Of a stretch of DNA of 64,000 nt, positions 22,801 through 63,400 are shown piece after piece. This stretch comes from Opisthocomus hoazin (lineage: Eukaryota; Chordata; Aves; Opisthocomiformes; Opisthocomidae). The notes beneath the pieces are model-generated. The model ran no database searches. It had not been told where the DNA came from and saw only the letters and a program-made list of their open reading frames with translations. The stretch is from contig NC_134429.1 in NCBI RefSeq assembly GCF_030867145.1, forward strand, positions 15,376,677 to 15,440,676, in the 5' to 3' direction. A program made the translations under genes and the position numbers. The stretch's first letter is position 1; the number at the start of each line of letters is the position of its first letter.

Positions 22801-25800
22801 TGTCCCCCTTTCCATCCACGTCTCCCTTTCCATCCACGTCTCCCTTTCCATCCATGTCCCCCCTCCATGTCACCTTCATCTTTGCCCCCATCCACGTCAC
22901 CCTTTCCATCCTTGCCCCCATCCGTGTCACCTTCATCCACGTCACCCTTCCATCCACATCACCTCCATTCTTGCCCCCATCCGTGTCACCTTCATCCACG
23001 TCACCCTTCCATCCATGTCACCTCCATGCTTGCCTCCATCCACGTCACCTCCATCCTTGCCCCCATCCATGTCACCCTTCCATCCGTGTCACCTCCATCC
23101 TTGCCCCAACCCACGTCACCCTTCCATCCGTGTCACCCTTCCATCCGTGTCACCTCCATCCTTGCCCCCATCTATGTCCCCCCTTCATCTGTGTCACCTC
23201 CATCCTTGCCCCCGTCCCTGTCCCCCTTCCATCTGTGTCACCTCCACCCATGTCCCCAGGTGGATGAGAACAGCTACTCGGTGCTGCGCTGCGAGGGCAC
23301 CTCCGTCACCATCCCCAAACTGTCCCCTGCCACCACCTACGTGGTGCGGGTCCAGGCGCTCACCTCGGACGGCCACGGCGCCTACAGCCCCCAGCACGAG
23401 TTCGAGACCCTGCCCGAGGGTGAGGACCAAGGCGGGGGTAGGATGTTGGGGTGGGGGATCCAGGGGGTGCATGGTTCACCCCAAAACCCTCCTGAATCGT
23501 CACTGCAGGCGCTGAGGCCATGGCATCCACCGCTGTCATCAGTGGCTCCATTGCTGGTGTCCTCTTCGTCCTCCTCCTCTTGGCCGCTCTCCTCTATGTC
23601 CTCCGGCGGTAAGGAGATTTCAAAAAAACCCAAACCCTCCAGAATACCCCAAAATACCATTTTTCCACCACTAAAGATGGGGAAGGGGTAATTTTTTTTG
23701 GTCAAAACGCTGCTTTTCTACAGGCGGAGGAGGTCACGGCCACGCCAGTCTGTCGAGGATGTCTACTTCTCGAAGTCAGGTGAGCAATGTGATGGTGGGG
23801 TCAACGCGGGTGGGTGGGGGGGTGACATGGGTGCTGACATCCCCCCCACCACCACCCCACAGATCAGCTGAAGCCCCTCAAGACCTACGTTGACCCACAC
23901 ACCTACGAAGACCCCAACCAAGCCATGCTCAAGTTCACCACTGAGATCCCTCCATCCTTTATCACCCGCCAGAAGGTCATCGGTGCCGGTAGGTGGCTTC
24001 ATCACCCCAAAGACACCCCAAAATTGGACCAGGGTGGGGATTAAACCTCCCCCCCTTCCTCCGAGCAGGTGAATTTGGGGAGGTCTACAAGGGCACCCTG
24101 AAGCGTGGGAAGAAGGAGGTGCCGGTGGCCATTAAGACCTTGAAGGTGGGCTACACAGAGAAGCAACGGGTGGACTTCTTGAGTGAAGCCACCATCATGG
24201 GCCAGTTCTGCCACCACAACATCATCCGCCTGGAAGGGGTCGTCTCCAAGTGTGAGTACCCCCCCTCCCTACCAAAAAAAAAAACAATTTCCCTGCAAAA
24301 CACCCCCAAAAATGCTATATAAAAATAGGGTGTTTTGAGCAACGATTGGGTTGGGGGTTTAGGGGGGTTGTTGGGTTGGGGTGTTGGGTTTGGGAGGGTT
24401 TGGGGTTTTTTTGGGGGGAGAGGTGTTGAGTTTTTTTGACCCGTTTTGTGTCCTTTATTTTTTTGGTACAGACAAGCCCTTCATGATCATCACGGAGTAC
24501 ATGGAGAACGGTGCGCTGGATAAATTCCTGCGGGTAGGCGAAGCACGGTGGCAACGTTCCAGCCCCCGTCCAGGATTACTGGGGTGGTGGAACCATCAAA
24601 ACCCACCACGGGAGGTGGGCCGAGGGATGGATCTGAGGTTGGATTCTCCCCTTTTCCCAGGAAAAAGAGGGGGAGTTTGGCGTCATCCAGCTGGTGGGGA
24701 TGTTGAGGGGCATTGCCGCCGGCATGAAGTACTTGGCCAACATGAATTACGTCCACCGGGATCTGGCTGCCCGGAACATCTTGGTGAACAGCAACTTGGT
24801 GTGCAAGGTGTCCGATTTTGGGCTCTCCAGGGTGTTGGAAGATGACCCCGAAGCCACCTACACCACCAGCGTAAGTGCCACCAAGGTGGGGTGGTTGGCC
24901 ATGGTGGGGGAGTGCAGAGTTGACCCCAACGTTGTCACAGGGCGGGAAGATCCCCATCCGCTGGACGGCCCCCGAAGCCATCTCCTACCGCAAGTTCACC
25001 TCGGCCAGCGACGTCTGGAGCTACGGCATCGTCATGTGGGAGGTGATGTCCTACGGCGAGCGCCCGTACTGGGAGCTCTCAAACCACGAGGTGAGCACCC
25101 GCCCTCCTCCACCACCCGTTTTGGGGGGGTTGTCTTTGCCAACGGACAGCTCTTTTTGGGGGGACACACACCGCTCAACCTCCTCCTCGTAGGTGATGAA
25201 GGCCATCAACGAGGGCTTCCGCCTCCCCGCGCCGCTGGACTGTCCCTCGGCCATCTACCAGCTGATGATGCAGTGCTGGCAGCAGGAGCGCGGCCGGCGC
25301 CCCAAGTTTGCCGACATCGTCAGCATCCTCGACAAGCTCGTCCGCGCCCCCGAGTCCCTCACGGCCTTGGCCGACTTCGACCCCCGGTGAGCGGCGGGAT
25401 GGGGTGGGGGTGAGGAAGGGGGGAGCAATTGGCAGCGTCGCGCTCCTGCACGCGCTGGCGCAGCGTTGCATTTTGGCGTCATCTTTTGCCATCTTGCCCC
25501 TTTTTGGCATCGTGTTTTGCCCCTTTTTGGCATCATTTTTTGCAATTTTGCCCTTTTTTGATGTCGTTGATATCGTCTTTTGCCGTTTTGCCCCTTTTTG
25601 GCATCGTTTTTTGCCGTTTTGCATGCTCGCGCTCCTTGTTTCACCTCGGCATTCTTGCACCTTTTCTTGCATCTCTGTTCTCGCGCTCTTTTCCACCTTT
25701 GCATCATTGCACGGCTTCTCGCATCTCTGTGTTTTTGCATTGCTTTTTGCAATTTTTGCCCTTTTTTTGCATTGTTTTTTTGCAATTTTTGACTTTTTTC

Positions 25801-41397: not shown

Positions 41398-42193
41398 GTG
41401 AGCGCGGCGGGCGGCGGGGCGAGGGCCCGGCCGGGCCCGGCATGGCAGGGAGCGGCGGGGGGGGCCGGGGGGAGCCCCGGGGGGGGCTGGGAGCGGGCGG
41501 GAGGGCCGCAGGCGGGCCCCGGCGGGACTTGAGGGGAAGGGGAAGGGGGCTGCGGCCCAACTCGCTGCCTGCGGGGCCCCTCCTCAGAAGGAGGCGTTCT
41601 GGGGGGGCACCCCGGCTGTGACCCCCGGTTTTCTGAGGAGAAGCTGCGCGGGGGTCGCCCCCCATCCCCTCAGCACCTGGGGGGGAAGCTGTGGCAGTGC
41701 TTTTCCTCCCCCCCCCCCCCCCGCCCTGTGTGACCCCCCCTCAGGCCCCGCGCCGAGGCCCGGGTCGGTCTTCTCAGGGGAGCGGGGCCTGGCTGGGGTC
41801 CGTGGGGGGCTCCCACCCGCCTCACGCAGCCGTGGGTGCTGGGAGCAGAGCCCCGTCCCCCCCGACTTGTGGGGCAGCTGCCGTCCCCACGGGACACGCA
41901 GCCCTGGCAGCCAGCGAGCCGTCTGCCTGGGACCTCGGCGGTAGGAGAGCGGGGAAGGCTTCAAAAACGCCACGCTGAAGGGAAAAAGGGGTTTTTCTCA
42001 TCTTCTGGCATCGTTTTTGGTGCGGTGACAGCCCGCACCGGCTGTACGTGCCCTCTGTGGGTGACACGTTTCATGGGCCAGCCACGTTTCCTTCGCCACG
42101 TTTCTCCTCTGTGGGTATTTCAGAGGTCGGGCGGCGTCACATAGACAGAGGGCTTTTTATGAGAACACGAAGGTTTCATAGTTTGTCATCCGG

Positions 42194-42768
42194 AGTGTGG
42201 CCAGCAGGGTGAGGGAGGTTCTCCTCCCCCTCTACTCTGCCCTGGGGAGGCCCCATCTGGAGTACTCTGTCCAGTGCTGGGCTCCCCAGTTCAAAACACA
42301 TGAGGAGCTACTGGAGAGAGTCCAGCGCAGGGCTATGAGGATGATGAGGGGACTGGAGCATCTCTCCTGCGAGGAGAGGCTGAGGGAGCTGGGCTTGTTC
42401 AGCCTGGAGAAGAGAAGGCTGAGAGGGGACCTTCGAAATGCCTCTAAATATCTGCAGGGTGGGTGTCAGGAGGACGGGGCCAGACTCTTTCCAGTGGTGC
42501 CCAGCGACAGGACAAGGGGCAACGGGCACAAACTGAAGCCGAGGAAGTTCCATCTGAAGATGAGGAAGAACTTCTTCCCTCTGAGGGTGACGGAGCCCTG
42601 GCCCAGGCTGCCCAGGGAGGCTGTGGAGTCTCCTTCTCTGGAGATATTCCAGCCCCGCCTGGCCGCGGTGCTGTGCAGCCTGCTCTGGGTGACCCTGCTT
42701 GGGCAGGGGGTTGGGCTGGGTGACCCACAGAGGGCCCTGCCAACCCCAAACATTCTGGGATTCTGTGA
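42194..42768 (+). mobile_element. CR1 LINE fragment, 3' end of ORF2 plus tail
   Basis: 575 bases of a 5'-truncated CR1. The frame from 42197 reads the C-terminal end of the reverse transcriptase protein without an early stop ([69 protein letters not shown]). The 3' end follows with GGGTGACCCTGCTTGGGCAG and the terminal ATTCTGGGATTCTGTGA. The intact partial frame and the close match to the second copy point to a young insertion. No clear target-site duplication is visible. Confidence 0.95.
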
Positions 42769-45700
42769 ATGGGCGGTTTTCACGGCGGATCCCGTGGCCT
42801 GGCGATGTCCCGGCGGCCTCGCTGGCTCCCTGCCGGCTGCCGCCCAGGGCTCCAGTTACCTGCGGGCAGCCCTGCCGGCACAGCCGTGTTCGGAGCTGCA
42901 CAGGCGTGTCCGCGAGCCTGAAAACTAAATAACTGAGGGGTCTGCGGGGCATCTGTTTGCTGGGGGGTGGTCCAGAGGGTCTCTGCTCGCCTCTCTCCTC
43001 GTGTCTTTCTCCTTTTAGTTCCTATTCACCGCGGGTTTTTTCCTGCCTGTCATCGCTTGTGATGATTTTTCCTCCCCTTACAGCTGGATGGGAGCTCGCC
43101 TGCCAGTTTCGCTGCCAACCACAAACTCCAGAGCCCTTCTCTGTTTTGTGATTTGCGTTATTAGCACATCTGTACCTTGAACGCTCCGGTCAGATCAGCT
43201 CTTAACTTTATTTTTTTTTTAACTGAAAATATTGCAGAATCAGTTACTGGAAATGAGGACAGACTCCTCTTCGCAGAGACTGGAAGGATTAGGGCTGCTC
43301 TGTTCCCCAAGCTGACACACGAGAAGGGAGATGACGGTAGGCAGAAAGTGAAACCCCTGCTCCTTTTTATCTTCCCAACGTAAGAACGGAAGGCTGGGTG
43401 GTGACAGCACTGAAAAGCAACATTTAAGCCGTGTTTTTTGCCTAAATTATCAAGGCTTTGAGGCTTTTTAATAGGTAGACGCTCAGGTGGCAGGTACAGG
43501 GGGAGGTTAATGTCATTAATAAGCGAGAGAGCTGAACGGAGCTCATGTGGGAAGCTTCCCGGGACCGTAGCTGCTGTATTTAATCTCTGTAAGCACGTAC
43601 GGCAGGCGTGGGTGTTCTCATAACGAAGTTTTTCCCTGATTAATTGGATAATGAGAGACTCGGCAGCCACATCGGGGAGAGGTCGGGGGGGGAAACGGCG
43701 CTCGCGTGCCTCTGACAAGGTGAAATCAGGGAGGTGCTGGTCTTGGGTTGGTGACGTGGGACCTCGGTGCCTTCGACACGCGAGGTTTGGGCTTTAAACC
43801 AGAGCTTTTCGTCCCGTTTCTCCCAGGATGGCTGCACGGAGACTGACTTGAGCGCCGGGAAGGGGGAAAACTCTGGAGGAGAGCCGCAACCGTCTCGCCC
43901 GCAGCCTCGGTCCTCCGGGTATCTCCGCTCCTCGCAGCACAGGGGTGAGTTCAGGCACCAGTCCTGGCTTATCTTTGGTTTTCAGGCGAGGAGCTCTGGC
44001 ACACGTCCTCAGGCCCCGACAGCGTTTGTGCTAACAGGGGCTAATTTATTGAGCGGTCGAGTGGACCAACAATGCCTGATTTGGCATTTTCCCTCCCCAG
44101 ATCCATCCCCTTTGCAGCACATCCCGTTTGGTCAGGGATGGAGATGGCTCTCACCACTGGAGCTGCACACTGGCCCTGCCTGAGTGGTGACGAGGAGCCA
44201 GGCTGGTGTTTTGGGTGCACCGTGGAGTTTTTTTTGATTCAGATATTTGGGATTTTTAAGGCTTGGAGTCGTGGATTTAAGTGCGCGAAGGTGATCTCGG
44301 CTGTTGGGCGCTGGGTTTGAGCGCGAGGCCCATCCGCAGCTCGTCCCAGCCCCTGCCCCGCTGCGCTCGCCTGCTCTGACGAAGGCGGAATGTTGTGTTA
44401 CGGAGGGAACTGCGGGAAGGGTGAAGATTTTCAGCAGGAGTTAAATTTCATGGGATTTTGCTTCCTTCGCAAAGCTCGGGTACGAAGCTGAAGCGAGGCC
44501 AATCGGGGAGCGATAAAATCACCATTCAGATGCAAAGTGCCTCCTACAAATTGCCAGAAATAGCCTGTCTGTGCATCAAACCGTTGTGATTTCTCGGCTT
44601 CCGCTGCGCAGAGCTATCCGGCATGGAAGGCAGCACTGTTTGTCCTGCTGGGAAAATCCTCCTCTTTTTTTTTTTTCCAGAGCTTCCTTTGCTAACCTTA
44701 CAGGGTCATACATGTGAGGGGTTTAGGCAGGTTTTGATACAAAAACTGATGTTTCTGGCTCTCGAGGGATGTATTTTTGGACAGGCTGTGGGTGTTTGGC
44801 TAAAAAGTACTCCGTGTTTTGGAGAGCTCGGGGAAAGTTGTGGCAGTGAGTTAACCTCAAAGACAAATGGCGTCTGTTGGGAGTGGAACTTTCTCTCTCC
44901 GTGCGTGACCCGCTGCTGTCGGAGGTGTCTGGGCTGCTCATCCCTGCCGGGAATGATTTTGGAAGCCAGCTGGATCCTTGGGCCGGAGATCTTCCACTGA
45001 GCGCCTTGCTAGCACCGGCAGCAGACAGGAGGAGGCTCCCTCTGCCCGCCGTGCTCGCCCGCTGCGCGCTTCTGCGCGCTCGAAGGGATCCGGGGGAAGG
45101 GACGTGCTTGCGGCTGCCTGGGAGCGACCTGGTGTGCTGGATCCAAACCTGTTGCCTTTCCCCGACCTGAGGCTCCCCGTGCTGGTTTTAAGAACTGGCA
45201 ATGTGGAAAAGCAACTGCTACGGGCTGGAAACCGTCGGAGAGCCGCCAAGCATCAAAACCAAGACTTTCCCTGGTCGTAACCTTGCTTCTTCCAGCAGTC
45301 AGAGCTTTAGGGGCTTCCTGGCCTGGCAGGTTGAACGTGGAGCTGTGGAGGAGTCCGCGTTTGCTTTTTCCTTGCTCATCACTTGCCCAGCGAGCAGCGA
45401 AACGATCCCTTCGGCCCACAGAGGAATCATTTTCCGAAGACGAAGCAGAGTGAAAACCTTTCGTTCTCTACCCTGCGCCCTGCAGGTGCAGCCCAGGAGA
45501 AAACCCGATGTGTGGCAGCAGCTCAGGCTCGTGGTGCCCCTCAGCCTTTGCCGACGAGGACCTCATCGGAAAACGGGCTTTCGCAGTGTTTCCAGGCGTT
45601 TGCAGCAATGCTCAGCCGAAGTCGTGCTTCGAGCAGGGAGAACTCCTTCCAAACAGGCAGTAAAAAACCCTAAAAATCCCTCAATATCACGACGTGAGCG

Positions 45701-45964
45701 TCTAAAATGAGCTTGACAATTTTGATGAACGCTTTCCACGCTGTGCCCTCAGCGGTAGCAGTGGCACCACCTGCTCTCCGAAGGCACGATGGCACTTGTG
45801 TTGGTGGAGGCAACAGGGCTTCTGCTTGCGGCTTGGGCCGGTTGAAGAGCAATAAACGGATCTTAAATGCTGTTAGGATGGCAGAAAAGTGTATGGATCC
45901 CTCTCCAGCCCTGCATTGTTATGGGAGAGGGTTTGGGGTTGTGTTTGGTGGGGGAGGCAGGCGG

Positions 45965-46428
45965 CTGGAGAGAGTCCAGTGCAGGGCTATGAGGATGAGG
46001 AGGGGACTGGAGCATCTCTCCTGCGAGGAGAGGCTGAGGGAGCTGGGCTTGTTCAGCCTGGAGAACAGAAGGCTGTGAGGGGACCTTAGAAATGCCTCTA
46101 AATATCTGCAGGGTGGGTGTCAGGAGGACGGGGCCAGACTCTTTCCAGTGGTGCCCAGCGACAGGACAAGGGGCAACGGGCACAAACTGAAGCAGAGGAA
46201 GTTCCATCTGAAGATGAGGAAGAACTTCTTCCCTCTGAGGGTGACGGAGCCCTGGCCCAGGCTGCCCAGGGAGGCTGTGGAGTCTCCTTCTCTGGAGATA
46301 TTGCAGCCCCGCCTGGCCGCGGTGCTGTGCAGCCTGCTCTGGGTGACCCTGCTTGGGCAGGGGGTTGGGCTGGGTGACCCACAGAGGGCTCTGCCAACCC
46401 CCACCATGCTGGGATTCTGTGATTCTGT
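45965..46428 (+). mobile_element. CR1 LINE fragment, second copy in ZBTB17 intron 1
   Basis: 464 bases, same orientation and same subfamily as the copy 3.7 kb upstream. It starts further into the element and differs at roughly a dozen positions by eye (about 97% identical). It has one stop early in the frame (AGGCTGTGAGG in place of AGGCTGAGAGG). It ends in ATTCTGTGATTCTGT. The flanks look duplicated: 45937-45966 and 46437-46460 share GGTTGTGTTTGG followed by AGGCAGGCGGCT, the left copy having six extra bases. Confidence 0.95.
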
Positions 46429-46638
46429 ATTCGGTTGGTTGTGTTTGGAGGCAGGCGGCTGTGGCGAGGAGCTGAATTAGGCTTTTTGGGCCATATTTTT
46501 TTTTTAATTAACAGGGCAGTCGGGTTGGGGTTGATCCATGGCTCTGTGATCTTGCTTCGTGGCCCTTTCTGACGTGGTGTTGGGGGTTTTGGCACCCGTT
46601 TCACCGCCCTCCTGGGGTTTGTCTGTCCTCCCGCAGCC

Positions 46639-52357
<5,719 letters not shown>

Positions 52358-52439
52358 ACTCCCACCCACCCCCCTCGCCTTTATTTAAAAGCTGCTTGGA
52401 AACGGTGTAAAAAAGCGTTATTTCGGGAAGGAGAGACGG

Positions 52440-52445
52440 AATAAA
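52440..52445 (+). terminator. ZBTB17: ZBTB17 poly(A) signal
   Basis: AATAAA 83 bases after the stop codon. The palindromic repeat array starts about 360 bases beyond it. Confidence 0.8.
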
Positions 52446-53465
52446 TGGCAATATTTTCTAACGGCTGAGGCTTGGGGGAGAGGGGGACGCGACGCTGCAG
52501 GCGCTTTGTGGCCCCCCCACATGGGGCTTTGGGTCTGGCTGTGCTGTGGGGGGAAGCAGGGGGTCCCAGAGCTCCCCCAGCCCCGGAGCCCCCCCCCCCG
52601 GCTCAGCTGAGCTGCAGGGAGGGGTCACCGAAATCTGCATTTTGTTGGTAATTCTCAGTATTGATTGAAAATGGGGATAATTGCGATGATAAAGGTCAAA
52701 GGGGGGGTTTAGGAGTCGCCGGTGGGGTTGTTGGGGTGAAGAGGGGGGAGTTTCACCCCGGCCCCCCCGGGCAGAAGGTGAGCGGTGCTGGAGGCAGAGG
52801 AGAGCCCGTTTTGGGTTAAAAAAAGGACAAAAAGGTGCTGCCCAGGGTCAGGGCAGGGGGTGAGAGCCCGGCCTTGTCTGCCCCTGCGCCGGGGGTCTGG
52901 GGATGGGCAGGGGCTTCCTGAGGGGGGGTCCCGGGGTCTGGGTGTGCGTTTGGGGGGTCTGTCCCCTCCCTGTCACCCCACACGGGTGCTGGGGCTGAGG
53001 GGGCTGCGCGTCCCTCGACACTGGGGGGGCACACAAGGGGGTCCAGGGGCACAAAGCCACCTGGAGGGGTCCTGGGGACCCTGAACTCAGGATGAGGCCT
53101 GAAGCCCCCCAGGGCCATGGGGTGGGGGGATGTGGACAGACACACAGACAGACACACGGACAGGTGGACGCCGAGCCAGCCACGCGGTCCCTCCTCGGGC
53201 CGCTCGTCAGCAGGATGGGGCCCTTCAGACCCTGCCCCCATCCCAGTGTCCGTCTGTCCGTGTGACTGGGGACAGGGACAGGGATGGATGGACAGACAGA
53301 TGGGGAAGGTCCAACCGGACACAAGGACATTGGCAAGTCCAGACAGATGGACACTTGTATGCACAACTGGACACATGGACAGCTGCACGCCCAGCCGGAC
53401 AGACGGACAGCTGTATGTGCCACTGGACAGATGGACGCCCGCCCAGCCGCACACTCCCCCCCCCC

Positions 53466-53846
53466 GCATTAATGCCCCAAAAACGGGCTTTTTGCCCCAA
53501 AGGCCCACTCCAAAAAAACAGCGATTTCACACCCCCGCCCCCCTCGGGCCAGGATTGGGCCCCTCCATCCCCCACAGTCCATGTGTCCGTCTGTCCGTCC
53601 CCGTGTCCCTCGCCCACCCGGGGCACTGGGGATGTGCTGCGGGCCCGATCCTGGCTGCAGACACACAGACGGGCAGGGACAGATGGACACGGGGATGGTT
53701 GGGGGCTCAAGGGCCCGATCGTGGCCCGGGGGGGGGGCGGGGCGGGGGTGTGAGGGGGGCGGGGCGGGGGCAGGGCAGGGGTGTGAAATTGCTGTTTTTC
53801 GGAGCAGGACTTAGGGGCAAAAAGCCCGTTTTTGGGGCATTAATGC
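53466..53846. repeat. Palindromic block 1 of the inverted array
   Basis: Arms read inward from GCATTAATGC at 53466-53475 and 53837-53846. The centre carries GGGCCCGATCCTGGCTGCAG followed by ACACACAGACGG, the same spacer type and orientation as block 3. Confidence 0.9.
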
Positions 53847-54489
53847 AGGGGGATGGAGGGGGGAGAAGTGTCCGTCTGTCCGGCTGGGTGTGCAAGTGTC
53901 CGTCTGTCTGGCGGTATGTACGGCTGTCCGGCTGGGGGTACAGGTGTCCGTCCAGATATGCAACCATCCGTGTGTCCGGCTGGGTGCACAGCTGTCCGTC
54001 TGTCTGGATGTACAGGCCCCTGTCCATCTGTCCATCCATCTGTGTGACCGCAGCGCTGCCCCCCGCCCCCTCCATCACCCAGCAGAGGAAGGGCAGGGGG
54101 ACGGATGCACGGACAGACGGACAGACAGACGGGTGTGCGTCCAGCTGGATGTACAGCCACTGCATGGACAGACGGACACACAGACAGTTGCCCACCCAGC
54201 CGGACACACGGACAGCTGTACGTGCCACTGGACAGACGGACACTTGTATGCCCAGACAGACAGACAGACGCTGGCAGGCCCAGGCAGATGGACAGACAGA
54301 CACCCAACCGGACGCACGGATGGGGGAACGTCCGGCTGGAAACACGGCTGGTGCAGAGCCGGACAGACGGACATGTGCCATCCAGCCGGACACACGGACA
54401 GTGGTGCGTCCAGACAGACGGACACTTGCACATCCAGCTGGACAGACGGACGCCCGCCCAGCTGCACAGTTCCTCCCCCTCCAGCCCCC

Positions 54490-54904
54490 GCATTAATGCC
54501 CCTAAAATGGGCTTTTTGCCCCAAAGCCCCGCTCCGAAAAACAGCGATTTCACACCCCCGCCCCGCCCCCGCCCCGCCCCCCTCACACCCCCGCCCCGCC
54601 CCCCCTCGGGCCAGGATCGGGCCCTTGAGCCCCCAACCATCCCCGTGTCCGTCTGTCCGTCCCCGTCTGTGTCTGGAGGAGGGAACAAGAACGGGCCTGA
54701 AGCCCTCAGCACCCTGGGGTGGGCGAGGGACACAGGGACGGACACAGGGGCTGGGGGGGGGGATCCAGGGGGCCCGATCCTGGCAGCGGGGGGGCGGGGC
54801 GGGGGTGTGAGGGGGCGGGGCAGGGGCGGGGCGGGGGTGTGAAATCGCTGTTTTTCAGAGCGGGGCTTTGGGGCAAAAAAACCCGGTTTTTGGGGCATTA
54901 ATGC
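54490..54904. repeat. Palindromic block 2 of the inverted array
   Basis: Arms from GCATTAATGC at 54490-54499 and 54895-54904. Its centre has GAGGGAACAAGAACGGGCC and AGCACCCTGGGGTGGG, a spacer type found again, reverse-complemented, in block 4. Confidence 0.9.
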
Positions 54905-55768
54905 GGGGGGGGGGGGAGGGGTAGTGTGCGGCTGGGCGGGCATCCGTCTGTCCGGTGGTACGTACAGCTGTCCGGCTGGGGGTACAGGTGTCTGTCCAGA
55001 TATGCAACTGTCCGTGTGTCCGGCTGGATCTGCCCCGTCCGGCTGGATGGGCACCTGTCTGTCTGTCTGGGCGCACAGCTGTCCGTCTGTCTGGATGTGC
55101 CGCTGTCCGTCTGTCCAGCTAGATGGCACGTGTCCGTCTGTCCGGCTCTGCACCAGCCGTGTTTCCAGCCAGACACTCCCCTGTCCGTCTGTCCGGCTGG
55201 GTGTCCGTCTATCCGTCTGCCTGAGCCTGCCAGCGTCCGTCTGTCTGTCTGGGCGTACAAGTGTCCGTCTGGACACACAACTGTCCCTCTGTCCGGCTGG
55301 GTGTGCAGCTGTCCGTGAGTCCAGCTGGACGCACCACTGTCCGTGTGTCCGGCTGGGTGTCCAACTGTCTGTCCGTCTGGACCTGCCAGCGTCCATCTGT
55401 CCATCTGTGCATACAAGTGTCCGTCTGTCCGGCTGTACGTACAGCTGGCCCTGTGCTTGTCTGTGTGGGCGACCATCCGTCTGTCCGTCCCCCTGCCCTT
55501 CACCCACCAGGCTGCTGCGGTACAGAGGGGGATGGGGCAGCCCTGGGCTCACACGGCCAGCCGGACAGACGGACAGGGGCCTGTATGGCCAGACACACGG
55601 ACAGTGGTGTGTCCAGACAGACGGACACTTGCACGTCCAGCCAGACACACGGACGGTTGCATATCTGGACGGACACCTGTACGCACAGCCGGAGGGCCGG
55701 ACAGCTGTACGTACCACCGGACAGACGGACGCCTGCCCAGCCGCACACTCCCTCCCCTCCACGCCCTG

Positions 55769-56193
55769 GCATTAATACCCCAAAAACGGGCTTTTTGCCC
55801 CAAAGCCTCGCTCCGAAAAACAACGATTTCACACCCCCGCCCCGCCCCCGCCCCACCCCCTCACACCCCCGCCCTGCCCCCCTGTGCCAGGATCGGGCCC
55901 CTCGATCCCCCCCATCCCGAGTCCATGTGTCCATCTGTCTGTCCCCGTGTCCCTCACCCATCCCGGGGCTCTGGGGCCTGTGCTGCGGGCCCGATCCTGG
56001 CTGCAGACACACAGACGGGCAGGGACAGACGGACACAGGTATGGTTGGGGGGGCTCAAGGGCCCGATCCTGGCCCGAGAAGGGGGCGGGGCGGGGGTGTG
56101 AGGGGGGCGGGGTGGGGGCGGGGCGGGGGTGTGAAATCGCTGTTTTTCGGCGTGGACTTTGGGGCAAAAAGCCCATTTTCGGGGCATTAATGC
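55769..56193. repeat. Palindromic block 3 of the inverted array
   Basis: Left edge GCATTAATAC (55769-55778, one base changed), right edge GCATTAATGC (56184-56193). The spacer matches that of block 1 in the same orientation. Confidence 0.9.
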
Positions 56194-57058
56194 GGGGGCT
56201 GGGGGGGGGGAGGGAGTGTGCGGCTGGGCGGGCGTCCGTCTGTCCGGCTGGGCGTGCAAGTGTCCATCTGTCTGGACGCACCACTGTCCGTGTGTCCAGC
56301 TGGATGGGCATGTGTCTGTCTGTCTGGGTGCACAGCTGTCTGTCTGTCTGTATGTGCCGCTGTCTGTCTGTCTGGCTGTACAGGCCCTTGTTCATCTGTT
56401 CGGCTGGATGGCACGTGTCCGTCTGTCCGGCTCTGCACCAGCCGTGTTTCCAGCCGGACGTTCCCCCGTCCGTCTGTCCAGCTGGGTGTCCGTCTGTCCA
56501 TCTGCCTGGGCCTGCCAGCGTCCGTCTGTCCGGCTGGGCATACAAGTGTCCGTCTGTCCAGTGACACATACAGCGGTCCGTGTGTCCGGCTGGGTGGGCG
56601 CCCACCCATGTGTCCGTCTGTCCGTGCAGTGGCTGTACATCCAGCTGGACACACACCCGTCCGTCTGTCCATGCACCCTGCCCTTCCCCGCCGGGTGCTC
56701 GGGTATGGACGGGGCGGGGGGCAGCGCTCCAGTGACACGGCCAGCTGGACAGATGGACGGGGGCCTGTAGGCTGGACAGACGGATGCTGGCAGGCCCAGG
56801 CAGATGGACAGCTGGACACGTGGCCGGACAGACGGACGGGGGAGTGTCCGGCTGGAAACACGGCTGGTGCAGAGCTGGACGTCCAGCCGGACACACGGAC
56901 AGGGGACTGTACAGCCGGACAGACGGACAGTGATGCGTCCAGACACACGGACGGCTGCACGTGCATCCGGACAGCCGGACAGTCGTACGTACCGCCGGAC
57001 AGACGGACACTGGTACGCCCGGCTGGACAGATGGACACTCCTCCCCCTCCATTCCCCT

Positions 57059-57479
57059 GCATTAATGCCCCAAAAAACGGGCTTTTTGCCCCAAAGTCCC
57101 GCTCTGAAAAACAGCGATTTCACACCCCTGCCCCGCCCCCGCCCCGCCCCCCTCACACCCCCGCCCCGCCCCCCTCGGGCCAGGATCGGGCCCCGTGGAT
57201 CCTCCCCCAGCCCCTGTGTCCGTCTGTCCGTCCCCGTGTCCCTCGCCCACCCCAGGGTGCTGAGGGCTTCAGGCCCGTTCTTGTTCCCTCCTCCAGACAC
57301 AGACGGGGACGGACAGACGGACACGGGGATGGTTGGGGGCTCAAGGGCCCGATCCTGGCCCGAGGGGGGCGGGGCGGGGGTGTGAGTGGGGCGGGGCGGG
57401 GGAGGGGCGGGGCTGTGAAATCGCTGTTTTTCGGAGCGGGGCTTTGGGGCAAAAAGCCCATTTTTTGGGGCATTAATGC
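57059..57479. repeat. Palindromic block 4 of the inverted array
   Basis: Edges GCATTAATGC at 57059-57068 and 57470-57479. The central spacer (CAGGGTGCTGAGGGCTTCAG, then GTTCTTGTTCCCTC) is the reverse complement of the block 2 spacer. Confidence 0.9.
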
Positions 57480-57793
57480 AGGGGCTGGGGGGGGGGGGGG
57501 GGGGAGAAGGGGGTTGTGCAGCTGGGCGGGCGTCCGTCTGTCCGTGCAAGTGTCTGTGTGTCCGGCTGGGGGTACAAGTGTCTGTCTGTCCAGCGGTACG
57601 TGCAGCTGTCCGTCTGTCCGTCTGGGCGTGCGATGTGCAGGAGTCCAGCTGTCCGGCTGGACGTGCAAGTGTCCGTGTGTCTGGACACGCCAATGTCCGT
57701 GTGTCCGGCTGGACCTGCCCCGTCCGTCTGTCCGTCCAGCCGGACACTTGTACACCCAGCCGGATGCCCGCCCAGCCAGACACTCACCCCCTG

Positions 57794-58040
57794 GCATTAA
57801 TGCCCCAAAAATGGGCTTTTGGCCCCAAAGTCCCGCTCCGAAAATCAGCGATTTCACACCCCCACCCCGCCCCTGCCCCACCCCCCCTCACACCCCCGCC
57901 CCGCCCCACCTCGGGCCAGGATCGGGCCCCGTGGATCCTCCCCAGCCCCTGTGTCCGTCTGTCCGTCCCCGTGTCCCTCGCCCACACAGGCTCTGGCAGG
58001 GGATGTGCGCTGTGGGCCCGATCCTGGCTCCGGACAGGGC
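57794..58040. repeat. Half block 5 of the inverted array
   Basis: Begins with GCATTAATGC (57794-57803) and reads like the left arm of the other blocks into the centre (GGGCCCGATCCTGGCTCCGG). Instead of a right arm it then passes into GTCC/GGAC minisatellite. A more decayed left arm follows at about 58409-58540. Confidence 0.8.
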
Positions 58041-59244
58041 TGGCGTCTGTCCGTGGAAGCGTCCGTCTGTCCGTGCAGCCCCTGCTCTGTGTTTCCCCCC
58101 CCGGAGCCCCCAGCGCCCCGGACAGGGCCAGGCACACGTCCGGACGGACACACAGACACTGGCTGGACGTGCAGACGGACAGGGGTGTGTTTTGCTGGCC
58201 ATCGTCCCGGGGTCACTCCCCGCCGGACACACGGACAGTGGCTGGACATCCGGACAGGCGGACGGGTGCTCGGACAGACGGACACGTGGACGGTCGCAGA
58301 GCCGGTTGGAGGCACAGTGCCACGGCTATCCCGGTGCTCAGACGGCTGGACGGACAGCCGGACACACGGACAGCCGGACGGATGGCTGGACAGACACCCT
58401 GCCCCCCAGCATAAACCCTGTAAAAATTTGAGTTTTTGCCCCAAACCCAGCGATTTCACACCACTGCCCCCCCCTCCATGTCCATCTGTCCGTGTCCCCG
58501 TCCCCACCCCCGCACTGGGGGGATCCAGGGCCCGATCCTGGTCCCGAGACCCCCCAATCCCCTCGGGACCCCCAGACCCCGGGGGGGGGGGGTGTCGGAC
58601 AGGGCCAGGCTCTCCCCCCGCCTCCCTCCCGGGGCACCAGCAGCACCGTTTTGTCCTTTATTTAACCCAAACGGGGCTCCCCCGGGCCTGGGGCAGCGGG
58701 GAGGGGGTCTCCCCTCTCTGACCCCCAAACCCTGCTGGCCAGGCTGGCAGGGCGCAAAACCCCCCAGTAGTCACCTAAAACTCCTTTTTTTACCGGATCT
58801 TCTTGGTTTCCACCCATTTGCAGCACCGCCGGTGACTCCTAGGGGGTGTCGGACCGGCTCCTGGTGCCGCTCCCCTCCTGCGCCAGAGCCCGGCCTGCTT
58901 TTGGGTGGAAAAGCAGCAAAAAAGGTGAAGCCTGGCTGTTGTTTTTTGCAGGCTGGCACGGAGCCAAGCACCGGGATTGATTTCGCAAGAGCTGGCGCGT
59001 AGGGAAGTCAAAAGCGGGAAAAAAATGGCAACTTCGGTGTTGATCACCTTATTTACAACAGGCGGGGGAAAAATCAAGAGATTTGGGTTTATGCTGATGA
59101 AATGATCTTTTTTTTCTTTTTTTTTTTAAATGAAGGATTGGCGACGACTCCCGGGGAGCCCCCCCCCTCCTTCCGCTCGCCCCCCCCCCCCCCCCCCCCG
59201 AGCGGCCGAGGGACGAGATCCGGGCGCCGAGGTGTTTTGTATTT

Positions 59245-60473: not shown

Positions 60474-63400
60474 TCATACCGACGCGATGACAATCATCAG
60501 GTGAGGAGAGATGTTGGAGATGCTGGCGAGGAGGTCCGGGGCGAGGCGGGACAGGTGGCTTTCCGAAAACTCGCAGGGTGGGAAGATCTGCAGAACATAG
60601 GCAGGCTGCGAGGGAGAAAAGACAGGCGGGTGAGAGACACAGCAGGGCCAGGGCTGGCCCGAAATGTCCTAAAATGGGACGTTTGGAGGATTTTTGGGGA
60701 GCTTAAAGGCTCGTAACCCGGCGCGCTCGTATGAGAAAGGAGAGGCTGCTCAGCAGTGCAGGTGCGGCTCCCGAGGTGGGGAGTTTTTCCACACCAGGGA
60801 CGCAAGAGCTGGCTGGTTTTATTGCAAAACACAAAACCCCTCCCACGAATTCTCATTCCAGCGGTTGCTGCGAGCGCTGACGGCTCGCTGCGGGCTGTTC
60901 ACACCCAGGGAACAGATTCCGTTTGATCCGAGGCAGCAACACAGCTGGAATAAACGCTCCCCATCACCAAAGCCAAACGTTTTGTCTTTATGTGGCAAAG
61001 AGCAAGAAAACACCAGGGGTCCTGGAAAAATCCAGATCTGCCATGAGGAAGAAACCAGAAGACTACTTCCAGCGCAGAAAAAGATCTGGAAAATGGGTCT
61101 GGTTTGTCTTCAGCCGAAGACGTAGGGCTGTGAACAGACTGAGCACACGCTTGGGGGGTTTTTTTTGGCTTTGCAGTTCATCTCCAGTCACGGTATCGAT
61201 CGTATCGGTGCGTTTCGATCGGCGACGTCAGAAGCCAGCACGGTACACGTGGGGGTTTTGTTTCAGTAATAAAACCAGGCAGCTCAGCTACAACCTTAAG
61301 CACAGCCCTAGGGTGGAAGGCGGCAGGTCCCGTTATCTATCCATTTATCCACGGCGTTTCAGGGCTTTCCCCGCCAATACCTGATTAGAGCCGGGGTTGG
61401 GAACGTTGATGATTCCTGCGGCTTGCTTAGCCTGCAGGTAGCTGATGAAGGCAGCCTTCAGCGACTCCGTCTGACTCACGACATCCTCCTGGTCGCGGCC
61501 GCACGGCAAGGCCAGCAACAGGCAGTAATCGCTCTCCACCTGGAAAGCAAACACAGCAGTTCAGTCAGACGATTGCTGGGAACAGGCTCGCTCCTGACAC
61601 GCATTCGTTACCCGCAGTGGAAAATCCTCTCTTTGAACCCCTTCAAAGTTACAAAAGACGTGCTGAAAGCTCGGCCGGGAGACGGTGACAGCTACTGATC
61701 TCCACGGCCGCCTGGATCCCGCTCTCCGCCTCACCCCGACGTGTCAGAGCCAGCAGGAATTCGTTCCAGGGATGGGTGACTCCAAAGGCTTCCCAACTCC
61801 GCCATTCCCTGTTCCACGAACACAGCACACCTATCGCTCGCGACTCGCAATCCGTGTCTCACGCTCTCCGGGACGCAGGAATGGCGCAGCTTTCACCCGA
61901 CTCCCCAGATAAAGTGACCGAAGCAACGAGAGGTGAAGTTTCCGGGAGCAGCTTTCAGCACGCAGACCTCGGCTCTCCCCAGCGGCGCATCCTCACCCGG
62001 TCCCAGCCCCTCACCATCATTCTCCGCGCGACCCCCTCCAGCTGCGACGCCTCCAGCCGCATGCGCTGGGCGATCCTCAGCGGCGGCCCTCCCTCCGGTG
62101 CCGGCAGGGACCGGTGCGCCAAGACGTTGTTACCGGAGACGAAGTGGAGCTGAACGGCGGCCGTGTCGTTCTTTAGAGCCAAAAGGCCCTGCCAGACAAT
62201 CGGGTATTTCTGCCAAGAGAGGGAGAAGACATATTAAATGTAGATGAAGGAGAGGGGGGTCTGAAACCCCGTTTGGCTCTGGTGCTTTCACAGGTAATGC
62301 AGACACCGCCGCACTGCTTTAAGGACTCAGCACAGATCTAACATCTCGTCACCCCCCGTACGCACCGCTCCTGCCAAAGCAGCAATTCAGCCCTTGTTCT
62401 TCCAGCTGGCTGAGGCGCCTGGGTGGCTCCCTCCATCGCAGCGTCAGAGCACTTCCCGATCTTTCAGTCTCCCACACAGCACGAGGCAAGCAGGGCCGTT
62501 ACCAAAACGGTATTTTTCTCTTTTACAAATGGGAGAATCGAGGAACAGCAGCGGCAGGAGGGCTGCTCAAGGTTATGCGGGAAACACTCGGCGCTGAACG
62601 CAACTCTCCGTTGCTCATCAGTGCCTGTTACTCGCTATCTGCCTCCTCTTCCTCAGCCTGCACGCTTTGGGAGAGTTTTTTTTCTTTTTCTTTAAATTAA
62701 ATGCATCGTATCTCTGTTTCCTGCCCCTGAAGAAAACCTTCCCAAGAAACAGCGGGCTCTAAGAACGATGCAGCACCGCCTGCCTGCACCTGCAGGCTGT
62801 ATTAAACAACAGGGAGAGAAAACGCGGCTGCTCGGCACTACCAGCACCTTAATTTTGAGACTCCAGGAAACGCCGTGTAAACGTGAACACGGCTAAAATT
62901 CACGGGGGACAGAAACAGCCCAGAAAGGAGACAATCGATCGCCTCCTCCACATCTGAAGCATTTGACACAAGAGAGGTCAGGTCTGGTGCCACAAGCGAG
63001 CCGAGCGATACAGAACTTGATCATCTCTCCCCGACGAGGAGCGTGAGGCTGCTTGGCCAGGAGAAGACGACGGAGCGATGCTTACCGTCAGAAGCTGAAC
63101 CATATCCACAGGTCTCTGCGAAACGGGGTGAGGAGACGGCTCTTGTTTGAGAGCAGACTGGGGCTCGGGGCGATTGAGGGGCAGCCCCGGCGGGGCTCCG
63201 GGACCCGACGTCGTGGGGATAAACAAGGATTGCTTGGGAACCGCCTGAGGTTGGTGCGGTGACGGAAGCTCCTGTTTCATCGAAATGGCGACGGGCGAAG
63301 GGTAGGAGGTCTGGCCCGTGTCTGCTTGTGCCCTCTGAAGGTGAACGTGAGGGTCTATCGGTGCCGCATGCCTATTTACAGTGGGGTGGTGACTCTGTTC

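Follow-up and report, generated by a model that had tools for sequence, protein, structure and literature searches.

Units of opposite orientation are laid out as unit, inverted unit and unit, with palindromic junctions and short spacers, in the inverted triplications described for origin-dependent inverted-repeat amplification (ODIRA) and for small inverted triplications (SIT) (PMC4689423, PMC13334657), and ODIRA is described as proceeding through inverted-dimer circles whose integration occurs by homologous recombination (PMC4689423). Tetris and Galileo, both foldback transposons, carry long inverted repeats that themselves contain tandem repeats, and Tetris is described as having an outer flanking (tip) domain, tandem repeats inside its terminal inverted repeats (TIRs) and an inner domain, its repeats giving rise to satellite arrays (PMC4079207). 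Minisatellites, for their part, are denser on some chicken chromosomes than on others (PMC4992247). Here, we describe a 5.9-kb array of alternating palindromes at 52799-58682 of a 64,000-nucleotide stretch of the Opisthocomus hoazin genome (hereafter the window; 15376677-15440676 of contig C16, in an assembly of 1.48 Gb and 415 contigs), where it occupies the gap between the converging 3' ends of ZBTB17 (plus strand) and SPEN (minus strand). The array resembles inverted triplications in arrangement and foldback transposons in its tips and, like the higher-order minisatellites of birds, is GC-rich and tandem. We regard it as real, unusual and probably passive, and as probably a variant of known inverted amplification. 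The statement in an initial annotation that no known transposon, satellite or gene family has this design was therefore too strong, as Tetris, ODIRA and SIT offer structural precedents in the cases that these sources describe; within the searches made, no literature was found on such an array design, on the ZBTB17-SPEN locus or on any avian array of this kind.

The array contains four whole palindromic blocks of 381, 415, 425 and 421 bp, plus a fifth that is half a block and a sixth that is degenerate, in line with the four whole and about two partial blocks first reported. Blocks alternate with minisatellite spacers (ms), block arms are of two classes (alpha and beta) and block cores of two subtypes, X in B1, B3 and the remnant of B5, and Y in B2 and B4. 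The features, in window coordinates, are as follows.

52799-52935, plus strand: terminal inverted repeat at the left end of the array, aligning to the reverse complement of 58543-58682
53200-53262, plus strand: core-like fragment left of B1, in a direct repeat family, 61-78% identical to three later stretches
53466-53846, plus strand: block B1, beta-core X-alpha, its beta arm shortened by a deletion
53847-54489, minus strand: spacer ms1, its centre reversed, nearest to reversed ms3
54490-54904, minus strand: block B2, alpha-core Y-beta, reversed, with 96.1% identity to B4 once reversed
54905-55768, plus strand: spacer ms2
55769-56193, plus strand: block B3, beta-core X-alpha, with GCATTAATAC as the edge motif on its left
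56194-57058, plus strand: spacer ms3
57059-57479, plus strand: block B4, beta-core Y-alpha
57480-57793, strand not assigned: spacer ms4, shortened
57794 to about 58036, plus strand: block B5, reduced to its left (beta) half with some of the core
58404-58560 (approximate), strand not assigned: block B6, degenerate, 57-65% identical to other half-blocks
58543-58682, minus strand: terminal inverted repeat at the right end of the array, aligning to the reverse complement of 52799-52935

Each whole block is its own inverted repeat, as had been proposed, with 88-93% identity between its best arms across 169-221 aligned bases and loops of 7-65 nt. The spacers, which pair a 24/28-nt GTCC minisatellite with its complement on the opposite side, are also palindromic (78-83% identity across 93-372 aligned bases, with loops of 8-71 nt); the strand flip from GTCC to GGAC reported for them is present, but the switch appears to lie off-centre and not half-way between blocks. 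Palindrome centres of two kinds, block core and spacer centre, thus alternate along the array, with loops of 7-71 nt overall, and there are inverted arms as long as 306 nt (89% identity) and 170 nt (94%). Whole blocks are bounded at both edges by GCATTAATGC, one edge being a one-base variant, and the nine copies counted earlier were recovered as eight exact and one with a single mismatch, all nine inside the array and none elsewhere in the window. Genome-wide, GCATTAATGC occurs 1332 times in 1.48 Gb against about 1413 expected at equal base frequencies; the same motif read backwards occurs 81 times, but is a poor control because it holds two CpG. Left block edges are spaced 1024, 1279, 1290 and 735 bp apart, giving a multi-part repeat unit (spacer plus block) of 1279-1290 bp where whole and of 1024 and 735 bp where shorter, which recurs with the direct periodicity of a higher-order tandem repeat except that one unit of the series is reversed.

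Evidence for that reversed unit comes from the arms, the blocks and the spacers together. In a tree of nine arms (left, L, and right, R; B6L was excluded at 57-65% identity to the others), the alpha arms B1R, B2L, B3R and B4R form one clade with support of 97/96, and the remaining arms, B1L, B2R, B3L, B4L and B5L, were named beta. Approximately unbiased (AU) tests of same-block arms as sisters, which covered B2, B3 and B4, rejected that grouping in each (p 0.0015, 0.0017 and 3.5e-6, respectively), and the arrangement expected of a direct array without a reversed unit, with B1R, B2R, B3R and B4R grouped, was likewise rejected (p 0.0003). By whole-block score, B2 matches B1, B3 and B4 better when reversed, these three match one another better directly, and B5 is direct relative to B3 and B4 with near ties against B1 and B2; among the spacer centres, c1 runs opposite to c2 and c3, and c4 and c5 have no clear orientation. 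Because arm tree, block scores and spacer-centre orientation all place the unit mostly head-to-tail with ms1 and B2 reversed, the block order reads from the sequence as B1+ B2- B3+ B4+ followed by the half-block B5+, and the array appears to fit the description of a direct tandem repeat more closely, its unit being quasi-palindromic and one copy (53847-54904, ms1 plus B2) lying reversed. The scheme of monomer, inverted monomer and monomer given in the initial annotation survives only as an outline; the arm tree, with its two arm classes and its rejection of sister arms in B2 to B4, does not support a single monomer in strict alternation.

The nearest relatives of the reversed unit lie farther along the array. 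Nine of ten ms1 windows are nearest to reversed ms3, and six of seven B2 windows to reversed B4 (one tied). The Jukes-Cantor (JC) distance between B2 and B4 is 0.040, compared with 0.087-0.117 for the other five block pairs; many of the differences fall at CpG-type sites, outside which the distance is 0.020 for B2-B4 and 0.037-0.056 for the other pairs. When ms1-B2 is reversed as one piece, it aligns best to the circularly permuted order of B4 and then ms3 (92.0%, score 1514), ahead of contiguous B3-ms3 (90.1%, score 1385), contiguous B4-ms4 (90.4%, score 917, ms4 being short) and B3 followed by ms2 (88.3%, score 1257).

Inverted structure of this kind is a property of the array rather than of minisatellites in this region. 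A self-against-self comparison placed 91 of the 92 inverted self-matches of the window (high-scoring segment pairs, HSPs; E<=1e-8) inside the array, which bears out the inverted pattern first noticed, and no HSP links the array with the rest of the window, whether inverted at 1e-8 or direct at 1e-6. The sole inverted HSP outside the array is a 54-nt self-palindrome (93%) at 50643-50696. Minisatellites are plentiful elsewhere (94 overlapping Tandem Repeats Finder (TRF) rows with a score of at least 80 in the window, 12 of them in the array), and are dense at 12294-36086 and 51177-51722; the minisatellite-dense chromosomes of the chicken are the small ones. At E<=1e-8, none of the other minisatellites of the window shows an inverted match to itself, and we therefore consider the inversion specific to the array. 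The hairpin-forming capacity attributed to the blocks is likewise reflected in predicted RNA folding, where z values on both strands are -15 to -58 for the four whole blocks and -13.5 to -28.9 for three spacers, while four other window minisatellites, folded on the plus strand only, give -1.6 to -6.5; each z derives from 15 shuffles, so that the large values are rough.

Taken together, the data point to a probably locus-specific, non-coding quasi-palindromic tandem array that probably, though by no means certainly, arose from errors of replication and recombination. As in inverted triplications and ODIRA, units of opposite orientation are joined here at short interrupted inverted repeats; unlike the published cases that those sources describe, which are amplification events in yeast and human, the array is in a bird, comprises about 4.5 units, is 4-14% diverged and has special terminal repeats. 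A GTCC minisatellite with its GC-rich flank would have undergone inverted duplication at short interrupted inverted repeats, by a template switch or a closed-fork event, producing a palindromic unit with two centres. The whole unit would then have been amplified head-to-tail, through unequal exchange or multimerisation of an inverted-dimer intermediate, and one unit (ms1 plus B2) would have been inserted in reverse, an entry made possible by palindromic arms that give homology in both orientations. The permuted-order fit is a hint of a circular intermediate for ms1-B2, since a one-unit circle integrating by homology in either orientation would explain that order in a single step; nearly as good an account would be B3-ms3 copied in inverse orientation, with its block converted later. 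That the array as a whole is a germline record of inverted-dimer circle multimerisation and two-way homologous integration, with ms1-B2 as a circularly permuted integrant, seems to us unlikely.

The reversed unit may also have arisen without any insertion, if palindromes were flipped in place through their own arms and reversed ms1 and B2 reflect two or more such flips within a direct array, an alternative that we consider possible though on balance doubtful. Each centre has its own orientation, and the arms supply the inverted homology that flipping requires, but the closeness of B2 and B4 (0.040 compared with 0.087-0.117) would demand an extra recent duplication or conversion, and, when crossovers were placed, the tracts of arm sequence next to B1R and B2R could be explained only with conversion. 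A main competing origin for the whole array, though a fairly unlikely one, is an old foldback-type DNA transposon with no transposase left, whose long, internally repeated TIRs were expanded in place as in Tetris. The array does have a terminal inverted repeat of its own, about 137 bp long and distinct from the inner repeats at both ends, with a score of 91 (maximum 40 in 300 shuffles and 49 among 2000 random window pairs), and tandem repeats do lie inside inverted arms, the 24/28-nt repeats being on opposite strands. The outer 43 nt of the two array ends are identical at 38 positions, and the window has no third clear copy of the 44-nt tip, whether within the array or beyond it (27/44 at the next best place); the pair scores 61, the next in the window 32 and 29. 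A weak direct match just beyond the right end, at 58883-58945, was not accepted as a third copy (27/44, score 27, within the background of <=32). Against a transposon, no convincing target-site duplication was found at the array ends (best score 4, random 95% value 6), although an old one could have decayed, and the array shares no HSP with the rest of the window. Among the GCATTAATGC matches listed (50 of 1332, all on contig C1), places are at least 56 kb apart, so that no exact motif pair at block spacing exists in that part of contig C1, and a 32-base edge pattern had no exact match in viral contigs, which is a weak test. Unlike foldback transposons such as these, the array has no target-site duplication found, no transposase seen and no second copy in the window, and it has many palindrome centres in place of one.

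An origin in replication and recombination errors, with one unit reversed, nevertheless has observations weighing against it. A tip present at the two ends only is unexpected from simple repeat expansion and expected of a foldback element; the arm tree is weak at five of its six inner branches, and the tested groups were picked after the identities had been seen; and support for the permuted order amounts to a 2-point gap in identity, with scores of 1514 and 1385. Assembly error, in the form of false inverted copies from chimeric reads, is highly improbable: palindromic sequence is difficult to assemble, but whole blocks are 4-11% diverged, the three spacers compared are 11-14% diverged and the cores fall in two subtypes. 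The array does not look like a simple assembly duplication on these sequence grounds, and the window contains no N letters.

A functional regulatory element, such as a terminator, an insulator or a source of long-hairpin RNA between converging genes, is quite improbable. Its location between two gene ends and its strong predicted folding would suit such an element, as would the concentration of GGGGCGGGG words (GC boxes), of which 39 of the 45 in the window lie in the array. The edge motif is also the least variable part, with a mean pairwise difference of 0.022 compared with 0.099 for the 66 block columns that follow it and 0.24 for the neighbouring spacer, but it has no CpG and only 10 columns, which makes its low variation weak evidence. 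In one multiple alignment of 160-base arms, from which B1 (beta-arm deletion) and B5 (half) were excluded, same-block arms are 84.4% identical (3 pairs) and different-block arms 84.9% (6 pairs); same-block arms being no better matched, neither hairpin selection nor arm-to-arm conversion is visible, although the pairs are few. Separate pairwise alignments, which covered arms within blocks, give higher values than the multiple alignment (89-94%). CTCF-like sites, scored against a consensus, are not enriched: the array lacks the one exact site of the window and holds 1 of the 9 with <=1 mismatch and 7 of the 87 with <=2. The array shows no CpG excess, with an observed/expected ratio of 0.60 (0.57 to its left), and has no Rfam match at the gathering score. 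G-quadruplex patterns number 32 in the array and 164 in the window. A regulatory function is thus not supported, and neither is the barrier or hairpin-RNA role suggested at the outset, there being no CTCF-like enrichment and no co-evolution of arms. A coding origin was considered as well and set aside: long open frames occur on both strands, but two array frames had no homologue at E<=0.001 (at least 8000 and 6306 candidates scored), and long open frames are common across the GC-rich window. Most likely, the present action of the array is passive, that of a hairpin-prone and probably length-unstable stretch between gene ends.

The placement of the array between converging gene ends follows from the plus-strand position of ZBTB17 and the minus-strand position of SPEN, and agrees with the first description of the locus. 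On the SPEN side, a minus-strand frame at 61955-62233 matches three solved SPEN/Msx2-interacting protein chains (E ~3e-36), and a SPEN frame has 97% identity, over 33% of the query, to the Msx2-interacting protein of Limosa lapponica (the sole named protein among 16 matches); the last coding frame on this side ends near 60474, which we take to be the SPEN C-terminus. On the other side, a plus-strand zinc-finger frame matches the ZBTB17 structure 7mc1 (2.5e-19; rank 4 of 101 matches, mostly zinc-finger, 60 of them listed), its stop lies near 52358 and an AATAAA follows at 52440, with the name of the paralogue assumed partly from gene order. Elsewhere in the window, a kinase-domain frame (PF07714) at 24637-25413 presumably belongs to an EPH-receptor-like gene, judging by gene order. 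Similar frames at two places, 42182-43021 and 45863-46507, resemble what we take to be fragments of CR1-type long interspersed nuclear elements (LINEs); the one frame tested against Pfam, 42182-42928, had no match.

Palindrome-rich DNA is usually short-lived. As 5.9 kb of diverged palindromes whose order and orientation can still be read, the array offers a sequence test of closed-fork, template-switching, circle-integration and foldback-expansion models and, if the circle reading is true, would be a natural vertebrate counterpart, at kilobase scale, of the ODIRA intermediate. For the genome that carries it, the array is likely to be an unstable site, difficult to sequence, next to two transcriptional-regulator genes.

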